A model generated the notes under the pieces. The model saw only the letters and a program-made list of their open reading frames with translations, searched no databases and was not told the origin of the DNA. From positions 1-64,000 of the forward strand of contig NTKI01000005.1 of assembly GCA_002457315.1 (NCBI GenBank): a stretch of DNA of 64,000 nt, written 5' to 3'. Origin of the DNA: Rhodothermaeota bacterium MED-G19 (lineage in GTDB: Bacteria; Bacteroidota; Bacteroidia; Cytophagales; MED-G16). A program made the position numbers and the translations under genes. Shown piece by piece: positions 28,852 through 31,855 of this stretch; the stretch's first letter is position 1; each line of letters begins with the position of its first letter.

Positions 28852-29280
28852 TTAATACTTTCTATCTAGAATCTCTTTTAAAATCACAGCCTCTTTTAAT
28901 GAATTTTTATTTTTAAGTCTATCCCTTAATCTAGATAAGTTACTTTTTTTTGTTACAGAGTTATTAATGTTTTCTTTTTTTGGCTTATAGTTTCGATTTT
29001 TGAATTTTAAATCATTTTTGTTTACTTCAATATTTTCTGTTATTTCTTCTTTTTTATTTTCAATAATTTCTATTTCATCAATAGGTTTTTCTTCTATTTT
29101 ACTAGGTTTTAAATTACCAAAGATTATTTCTTTAAACTTATTTGGTTTATCACTTTTGTTTTTGAGGTTATTAGGGGTTTGTTGATTAGATTTTTTTTTC
29201 TTTGAAAAGTAATTAGATAACCAAGCTATAATCCCGAAAATTATAGGTCCTATAAATTCACTAAAATCAGAGAAATCCAT
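28852..29280 (-). CDS. Lysine-rich single-pass membrane protein
   Basis: 142 residues: an N-terminal hydrophobic helix (about residues 8-24, EFIGPIIFGIIAWLSNYF) followed by a long, highly charged Lys/Glu/Asn segment with no recognisable domain and a C-terminal helix rich in Arg/Lys (LSRLRDRLKNKNSLKEAVILKEIL). Likely anchored in the inner membrane with the tail in the cytoplasm. Divergent from smc and preceded by a good -7 element. I do not recognise the family. Confidence 0.6.
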   Translation of the reverse strand: MDFSDFSEFIGPIIFGIIAWLSNYFSKKKKSNQQTPNNLKNKSDKPNKFKEIIFGNLKPSKIEEKPIDEIEIIENKKEEITENIEVNKNDLKFKNRNYKPKKENINNSVTKKSNLSRLRDRLKNKNSLKEAVILKEILDRKY

Positions 29281-29326: not shown

Positions 29327-31855
29327 ATGAGATTAAATAAAATAGAAATAAAAGGTTTTAAAAGTTTTGGTGACAAAACAATCATAAATTTCAATAGTGG
29401 AGTTACTGGTATTGTAGGTCCAAATGGTTGTGGCAAATCAAATATTGTAGATGCAATAAGATGGGTGTTAGGTGAACAAAAAACTACCCTTCTGAGATCA
29501 GATAAAATGGAGAACATAATATTTAATGGATCCAAATCAAGAAAAAAACTTCAACTAGCAGAGGTCTCTATCTCATTTGATAATACTAAAAATTTAATTC
29601 CTACTGAATACTCAACTGTTACTGTTACTAGAAAATATTTTAGGTCAGGAGATAGTGAATATCTTTTGAATGACGTAAAGTGTAGACTTAAAGATATAAC
29701 TAACCTATTTCTTGATACCGGGATATCATCTAATAATTATGCCATAATAGAACTGTCTATGGTAGATAACATACTAAATGATAAAAACAACTCAAGACTT
29801 CATCTGTTTGAGGAGGCAGCTGGTATCTCAAAATTTAGAAAAAGAAAAAAGGAAACTTTCAATAAAATTAAACAGACAGAATCTGACCTTGATAGAGTTG
29901 AAGATTTAGTATATGAAATTGAGAAGAATCTTCGCTCATTAAAAAGACAAGCAAAGCAGACAGAAAAATATTATAATTATAAAGATGAATATAAAAATAT
30001 AAGTATAAATGTGGCTCTTGAAACATCTAAAAAGACTCGTAGCACATTAGAAACTCAAAAGAAAAAACTTGTTAAAATTGAAAATGACAATGTAAAAGTA
30101 GTTTCTGATTTAGCTAAAAAAAATTCTCAATTAGAATCTGCAAAATCATCTCTAATACCCCATGAAAAAAAACTCATAAGATTACAGAAGTCTTTGAATT
30201 CAGTACTAGAAGATATTAGAGGATATGAAGAGTCTAAAAGAATTAAAGCTCAAAAATCTAAAATGTTAATTGAGAAAGCTGAAGATTTAAAAGAAAGAAT
30301 AAAGTTTGATAGTGAAAGTAATAAAAGGTCTGAGTTTTCAATCTCAAGTATAACTAAAGAAATTGTTTCAAATGAAAAGGATTTAAAAAAGACTTTAAAT
30401 AGATTGGATTCAACTAAAAAAGACTATTTAAAATACGAAGAACAACTGAAAGACAAAAATGTTAAAATAACTGATATAAAGGAGGTGGAAGATTATTTTA
30501 GAGAGTTAAATCATAACATTGAGTCTATATCAAATAAGAGAAGTCAGCTTGAAAACCTTGTGAAAATTGATAAAATTGACAAGAAAGCTATTTTAGATAA
30601 AATAGAATCTCTAGATAATGAAATCAAAGAATTAAAAAAGGGATTTAAAGTAATTGAAAACTTATTTAAAACTGAAAATAAAGAAATTATAAGAATCAAT
30701 AAATTATTTACTGACAAGTCAAAGGAATTGTCTAATGATGAAATAACTTATAACAATATAAAAAGTAAGATAGAGTCATTAAAGAAGGAGGTAGAGTATA
30801 AAAACACTACATATGAATCAAATAAAAAAAGAATTCAAGAAAACATTAAAGATTTAGAAAATTCTGAGAAAGAGATAAGCAAAATTGATGTTGATTCTGA
30901 CTCAAAAGACAATTCTTTAATTAAACTTTATGATAAAAAGACCAAGTCAGAAAAAGACTTAGAGAAATTTGAAGATGAATATTATAAGTTAAAGTCTACT
31001 ATCGATCTTGATGATTCATCAATAAAAGATTTACAACAAAAAAAAGATTTAAATATTAGTTTAATAGACGAATTAAAAACGAGTATTCACGACAACGAGA
31101 TAGAGCTAAATTCAGTTGAACAGAGATTATCAATAGAATTTGATGTAGAATTAAAAAAATGTAAAATTGATAGATCTATATTTGAAAAGAATACACTTGA
31201 AGAACTTTCAGACAGAAGAGATAAGCTTAAATCTAAAATCGAAAAAATAGGTCAAATTAATCCATTAGCAATGGAGGCTTATAATGAAATACAGGAAAGA
31301 CATGATTTTATTGTAAAAGAAAGAAGTGATCTACTTGAAGCTAAAGATTCACTATTAAAAACAATAGAAGAAATTGATATTGTTGCAAAAAAATCTTTCT
31401 TAACGTCTTTTGATAAAATCAAGAATAATTTTAAAACAGTATTTAGGTCATTATTTACTGAAGATGATGATTGCGATCTTGTAATTAACGATGAAGAAAA
31501 CCCTTTAGAGTCATCAATAGAGATAATGGCTAAACCTAAAGGTAAAAAACCAATAACTATTAATCAGTTATCTGGAGGAGAAAAAACACTTACGGCTACG
31601 TCATTACTTTTTGCAATTTATTTATTAAAACCTGCTCCTTTTTGTGTTTTTGATGAAGTTGATGCCCCTCTAGACGATGCTAATATTGATAAATTCAATA
31701 AAATTGTAAATAAATTTTCAAATTATTCTCAATTTATAATTGTTACACACAATAAGAGAACAATGAACAATGCAGATATTATTTATGGAATTACTATGCC
31801 TGAGCAAGGTGTTTCAAAGGTAGTTCCTGTAGATTTAAGAAAATTAAAAATTTAA
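29327..31855 (+). CDS. smc: SMC-type chromosome segregation ATPase without a recognisable hinge
   Basis: Chromosome-organising ATPase. The N-terminal head has Walker A GPNGCGKS (G31-S38) and the SMC block GVTGIVGPNGCGKSNIVDAI; the C-terminal head has signature LSGGEK (L748-K753) and Walker B ending D776-E777 (FDEVDAPLDDAN). Bacterial SMC proteins are about 1,150-1,200 residues with a globular hinge of about 150-200 in mid-chain. Here only 842 residues exist, and the stretch between P278 and P646 is charged coiled coil with no proline and only three glycines, so no hinge fold fits. The reading frame is intact. It could be a reduced chromosomal SMC or a paralogue. ScpA and ScpB are not in this window. 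Confidence 0.9.
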   Translation: MRLNKIEIKGFKSFGDKTIINFNSGVTGIVGPNGCGKSNIVDAIRWVLGEQKTTLLRSDKMENIIFNGSKSRKKLQLAEVSISFDNTKNLIPTEYSTVTVTRKYFRSGDSEYLLNDVKCRLKDITNLFLDTGISSNNYAIIELSMVDNILNDKNNSRLHLFEEAAGISKFRKRKKETFNKIKQTESDLDRVEDLVYEIEKNLRSLKRQAKQTEKYYNYKDEYKNISINVALETSKKTRSTLETQKKKLVKIENDNVKVVSDLAKKNSQLESAKSSLIPHEKKLIRLQKSLNSVLEDIRGYEESKRIKAQKSKMLIEKAEDLKERIKFDSESNKRSEFSISSITKEIVSNEKDLKKTLNRLDSTKKDYLKYEEQLKDKNVKITDIKEVEDYFRELNHNIESISNKRSQLENLVKIDKIDKKAILDKIESLDNEIKELKKGFKVIENLFKTENKEIIRINKLFTDKSKELSNDEITYNNIKSKIESLKKEVEYKNTTYESNKKRIQENIKDLENSEKEISKIDVDSDSKDNSLIKLYDKKTKSEKDLEKFEDEYYKLKSTIDLDDSSIKDLQQKKDLNISLIDELKTSIHDNEIELNSVEQRLSIEFDVELKKCKIDRSIFEKNTLEELSDRRDKLKSKIEKIGQINPLAMEAYNEIQERHDFIVKERSDLLEAKDSLLKTIEEIDIVAKKSFLTSFDKIKNNFKTVFRSLFTEDDDCDLVINDEENPLESSIEIMAKPKGKKPITINQLSGGEKTLTATSLLFAIYLLKPAPFCVFDEVDAPLDDANIDKFNKIVNKFSNYSQFIIVTHNKRTMNNADIIYGITMPEQGVSKVVPVDLRKLKI

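Follow-up and report, generated by a model that had tools for sequence, protein, structure and literature searches.

In most models of how SMC proteins act, the hinge has a part to play, whether in ring entrapment, as a hinge gate or in hinge-to-head segment capture. Experiments in Bacillus subtilis showed that Smc tolerates replacement of the hinge fold, and the substitute used, a zinc hook, was still a dimerization domain (PMC5344682). In the same study, Buermann et al. found that shortened B. subtilis Smc works with arms of 253–267 residues, and measured a functional arm period of 91 residues, a value close to the superhelical repeat (PMC5344682). A metagenome study reported a hinge-less SMC clade in oceanic actinobacteria on the basis of sequence and AlphaFold models, without mention of ScpA or a kleisin in its text and without proposing a mechanism (Sussfeld et al. 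2025, PMC12153180). This report makes outdated the statement, in an earlier sequence-only reading of the locus described here, that no hingeless chromosomal SMC had been described. We found no report of a bacteroidotal hinge-less SMC in the literature searched, which excludes most subscription journals and all preprints.

The window, the whole stretch of 64,000 nucleotides that we analysed, contains an uninterrupted open reading frame at 29327–31855 on the forward strand that encodes a Smc of 842 amino acids. The protein scored 810.4 bits against TIGR02168 (SMC_prok_B; cut-off 567.35), matched in two stretches, and is assigned to Smc at the equivalog level by this score. Its ABC ATPase head is split and carries the Walker A, signature and Walker B motifs, and solved Bacillus Smc heads (5xg3/3zgx) align gap-free to residues 2–218 and also to residues 632–841. 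The N-terminal half of the head (residues 1–165; 29327–29821) carries the Walker A motif GPNGCGKS (residues 31–38; 29417–29440), of which G31, N33, G34, G36, K37 and S38 are invariant across 49 aligned SMCs. The C-terminal half (residues 693–842; 31403–31852) carries the signature LSGGEK (residues 748–753; 31568–31585) and the Walker B residues DE (776–777; 31652–31657), which are likewise invariant. The translation bore out what the sequence-only reading had said of these three motifs and the unbroken frame, as well as its description of a 367-residue coil without proline: the only coil prolines are P278 and P646, and the three coil glycines are at 299, 439 and 642. Divergent from smc, at 28852–29280 on the reverse strand, we noted a small lysine-rich open reading frame with a hydrophobic N terminus, and its position is kept in a second genus (locus L044, 5440–5949, reverse strand).

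The absence of a recognizable hinge, which was the central claim of that reading, held up. The SMC hinge profile PF06470 had no match in the 842-residue protein at E ≤ 1, nor anywhere in its own genome or in the 14 other genomes of the family; the same profile was found in 34 other genomes of the same order, within frames of 1,069–1,225 amino acids. A zinc hook was also absent, with no cysteine between residues 120 and 611 in any of seven hingeless proteins.

The gene is conserved. We found it at full length in eight genomes of the family from two genera, each copy having exactly 842 codons and no indels. Identity to the window protein is 73–84% for copies from the same genus and 62% for the second genus; partial copies are present in four further genomes. 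This identical length excludes the joining of fragments by sequencing error that had been named as a possible refutation. A codon comparison of the eight orthologues gave a dN/dS of 0.05–0.21 that was lowest in the heads, and by this measure the hingeless smc is under strong purifying selection.

Hinged Smc proteins of other Bacteroidota families have about 1,180 residues. In a tree of head domains the hingeless proteins form one clade (100/100) nested among hinged Cytophagales SMCs, which places a single loss of the hinge at the root of this marine Cytophagales family. The loss can be dated since more distant relatives have a normal hinge; a normal hinge at this locus, the other named refutation, occurs in none of the close relatives. 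The host does not belong to Flavobacteriia, the suggested reference group, but to a marine Cytophagales lineage with relatives labelled Marinoscillum or Flammeovirgaceae (the habitat of named relatives was read from assembly titles and isolate names). Overlapping surveys at the level of the order (291 genomes), the class (295) and the phylum (395) gave, among the matches listed, no further protein outside the family that spans residues 1–840 in one match, and genomes beyond these matches were judged by best E-values of half-length size. The small genomes of the family suggest streamlining.

We next consider what stands in place of the hinge. AlphaFold2 models of the window protein (pLDDT 77.6, pTM 0.43) and of its L044 counterpart, 62% identical to it (pLDDT 75.5, pTM 0.37), both showed two long antiparallel helical arms joined by a turn, at residues 413–418 and 415–418, respectively; confidence is modest in both models, and low at the turn and in parts of the heads. 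A fold-back at a minimal turn, one of the options raised from the sequence, is thus predicted in both, with a turn of four to six residues. In the window protein, the N-terminal arm helices (residues 168–412; 29828–30562) lead into the predicted turn KIDKID (residues 413–418; 30563–30580) and on to the C-terminal arm (residues 419–692, including a joint region at about 606–647; 30581–31402). The structures retrieved with the model in a PDB fold search were SMC heads and low-TM coils, which told us nothing further about the tip.

Measured from residue 165, the N-terminal arm has 247 residues to the turn, compared with exactly 333 to the hinge in 35 of the 35 measurable canonical Bacteroidota SMCs (alignment A1), an unusually rigid length; the C-terminal arm has 274, compared with about 361 in canonical relatives. 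The loss per arm is 86–87 residues and the mean arm falls from 347 to 260.5, values that rest on the modelled turn. On the B. subtilis scale, on which the wild-type arm has 344 residues, the arm would have about 258, or up to 268 when the larger grafted hinge unit (487–684) is counted. It is striking that the modelled loss of about 86 residues per arm is close to the period of about 91, and that an arm of about 258–268 residues would lie near the functional window.

The register of the coil gave an independent check on the position of the turn. Residues 246–379 and 793–929 of B. subtilis Smc form one coiled-coil segment (PMC5526789), in which paired residues sum to about 1172–1175. Using the C-terminal offset of about 344–345 residues from our alignment, and a B. 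subtilis Smc length of 1,186 taken from construct names (PMC5344682), the turn ends correspond to B. subtilis residues of about 412 and 764. Their sum is about 1176, indicating that the canonical register is kept. Register-preserving shortening of this kind would be natural support for the arm-phase rule that was derived from engineered B. subtilis proteins.

The partner proteins, for which a search had been recommended, were both found. ScpB is present in all 15 family genomes and ScpA in 13, the two genomes without ScpA being 54% and 72% complete, and both are single-copy where kept. The ScpA of the window's genome is collinear with its counterpart in a hinged relative; the two share 59% identity and align gap-free over 240 residues, so its N-terminal and C-terminal parts are both kept. 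ParB was found in 11 of the 15 genomes, all of which are incomplete. A parS-like palindrome, GTTCCACGTGGAAC, occurs exactly once per genome in ten of the 15 (for example, L157 and L158) with 0 occurrences of a reversed control pattern, and this single site is likely to be parS; there is no match in the window's own genome, which is 87% complete. With ScpA, ScpB, ParB and a single parS-like site retained, the system looks like a working Smc–ScpAB condensin.

No SbcC/MksB-type Walker B ATPase (PF13558) was detected above cut-off in the family, leaving no obvious back-up of that class, and such ATPases are common in the rest of the order. The SbcC-type proteins are apparently absent from all the genomes of family f1 (G000–G014), unlike in many relatives. 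Separately, we observed that Smc, ScpA and ScpB are jointly missing from seven genomes of other families in the same order (G023, G025, G029, G041, G042, G056 and G057), which are near-complete, large and have SbcC/MksB-type Walker B ATPases; in these, Smc–ScpAB has probably been lost or replaced.

The explanation that we favour, and consider reasonably probable, is that this only detected Smc of the organism is the ATPase of an otherwise ordinary Smc–ScpAB condensin, loaded by ParB at parS, with subunits that pair without a hinge. On the branch to the family the hinge was lost, along with about 86 coil residues per arm as judged from the modelled turn, and the two arm helices would meet in a tight turn to make one antiparallel hairpin in canonical register, as modelled. 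Conservation of the heads, neck and ScpAB implies an ordinary head cycle. Two Smc copies could pair through ATP-dependent head engagement, through ScpA, with ScpB, connecting one head at its neck to the other at its cap, and through residual arm–arm 'rod' contacts, possibly with weak tip–tip contacts. Shortening by roughly one superhelical period would keep the arm tip oriented as the head cycle needs. Our best guess, by analogy, is that arm–arm contacts and ScpAB account for the pairing. The rod model of B. subtilis Smc has seven arm contact regions over 330 residues, and these rod contacts are said to contribute to dimerization of hinge-less Smc (PMC5526789). Hinge-less Smc5/Smc6 sub-complexes still engage via their heads with ATP (PMC8327961). 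Function without any dimerization domain goes beyond what the B. subtilis precedent would establish.

A different way to close the ring would be for the hairpin tip to act as a new dimerization element, with tips pairing end to end or side by side, in the manner of a hinge or zinc hook. Positions 414, 417 and 423 are hydrophobic in seven of seven hingeless proteins compared with 5%, 26% and 21% of canonical ones, positions 442 and 446 behave similarly, and dimerization folds can be swapped for one another in B. subtilis Smc (PMC5344682). However, hydrophobic gains run along the whole coil, the enrichment at the turn is weak and post hoc (permutation p ~0.04), conservation of the tip is no higher than that of the rest of the coil, and the tip has neither cysteines nor a globular insertion. 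We therefore treat the hydrophobic cluster as suggestive at most of a dimer site, and regard a tip dimer as unlikely, though worth keeping in view.

The protein could instead have ceased to be a dimeric condensin and taken another role, for example as a monomeric or repair-type ATPase. A hinge is regarded as indispensable to SMC assembly, and Sussfeld et al. speculated that the actinobacterial variants function differently (PMC12153180). Retention of ScpA, ScpB, ParB and the parS-like site, together with heads that are the most conserved parts of the protein, makes such a change of function improbable.

Even less probable is that a second gene supplies the hinge in trans or that a normal smc sits in sequence missing from the assembly. 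The 15 family genomes are 54–93% complete, but joint absence through incompleteness is very unlikely: besides the lack of any PF06470 match, a Marivirga hinge used as query against the 15 genomes turned up nothing credible as a separate hinge gene (its best match had an E of 0.02 and contained stops). The sequence-only reading had also asked for a second full-length smc in the same genome, and we rejected this candidate, as that genome (1.32 Mb in 25 contigs, 87% complete) has a single smc match. A hinge could conceivably have diverged beyond the reach of both the PF06470 and the Marivirga searches. A degenerating gene or an assembly artefact can be dismissed: the genomes are incomplete environmental assemblies and one smc copy is spread over separate frames around runs of N, but eight full genes of equal length in two genera, with dN/dS of 0.05–0.21 and intact motifs, already contradict it. 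That split copy (L046; G004:C56:4082–6608) lies in two overlapping frames and most likely reflects an assembly error.

Returning to a hinge-less condensin, if this explanation is true, translocation needs no ring that is permanently closed at its far end. A broader statement, which we find plausible but hold tentatively, is that a complete ParB/parS-loaded Smc–ScpAB condensin can organize chromosomes while lacking any distal dimerization domain, that at least two marine lineages lost the hinge independently of each other and that the loss was here constrained to take away about one superhelical period of the arm. If so, SMC motors need no topologically closed SMC–kleisin ring. Whether a hinge is needed becomes directly testable with a natural family in which the loading and kleisin machinery stayed and the hinge was dropped.

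Compared with known systems, the protein resembles canonical Smc–ScpAB (B. subtilis Smc; TIGR02168) in its head motifs, neck, joint region and coiled-coil register and in its ScpA and ScpB partners, ParB and parS-like site, and is orthologous by tree; it differs in having no hinge, arms that are each about 86 residues shorter and 842 rather than about 1,180 residues. With regard to MukB and MksB, the family has no PF13558 hit above cut-off, and the protein itself scores as TIGR02168. ABC heads, a coiled-coil hairpin and the lack of an SMC hinge are shared with Rad50/SbcC and the archaeal ASRP family (coalescin, Sph), for which we know of no kleisin partner; their CXXC zinc hook (PMC9389158) is absent from the hingeless Smc. 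The engineered B. subtilis mini-Smc and Smc(zinc hook) proteins likewise have an arm near the 253–267-residue window and a dispensable hinge fold, but keep a dimerization domain, of which none is recognizable in the natural protein (PMC5344682). The actinobacterial clade is also marine, with an SMC head and coiled coil and without a hinge, a CXXC zinc hook or an ordinary smc in tandem; it belongs to a different phylum, and the study that described it covered neither the ScpAB/ParB context nor the length and register of the arms (PMC12153180). As the hingeless clade nests in Bacteroidota by tree, the bacteroidotal loss appears to be an independent second origin, the two groups being placed separately and compared by description.
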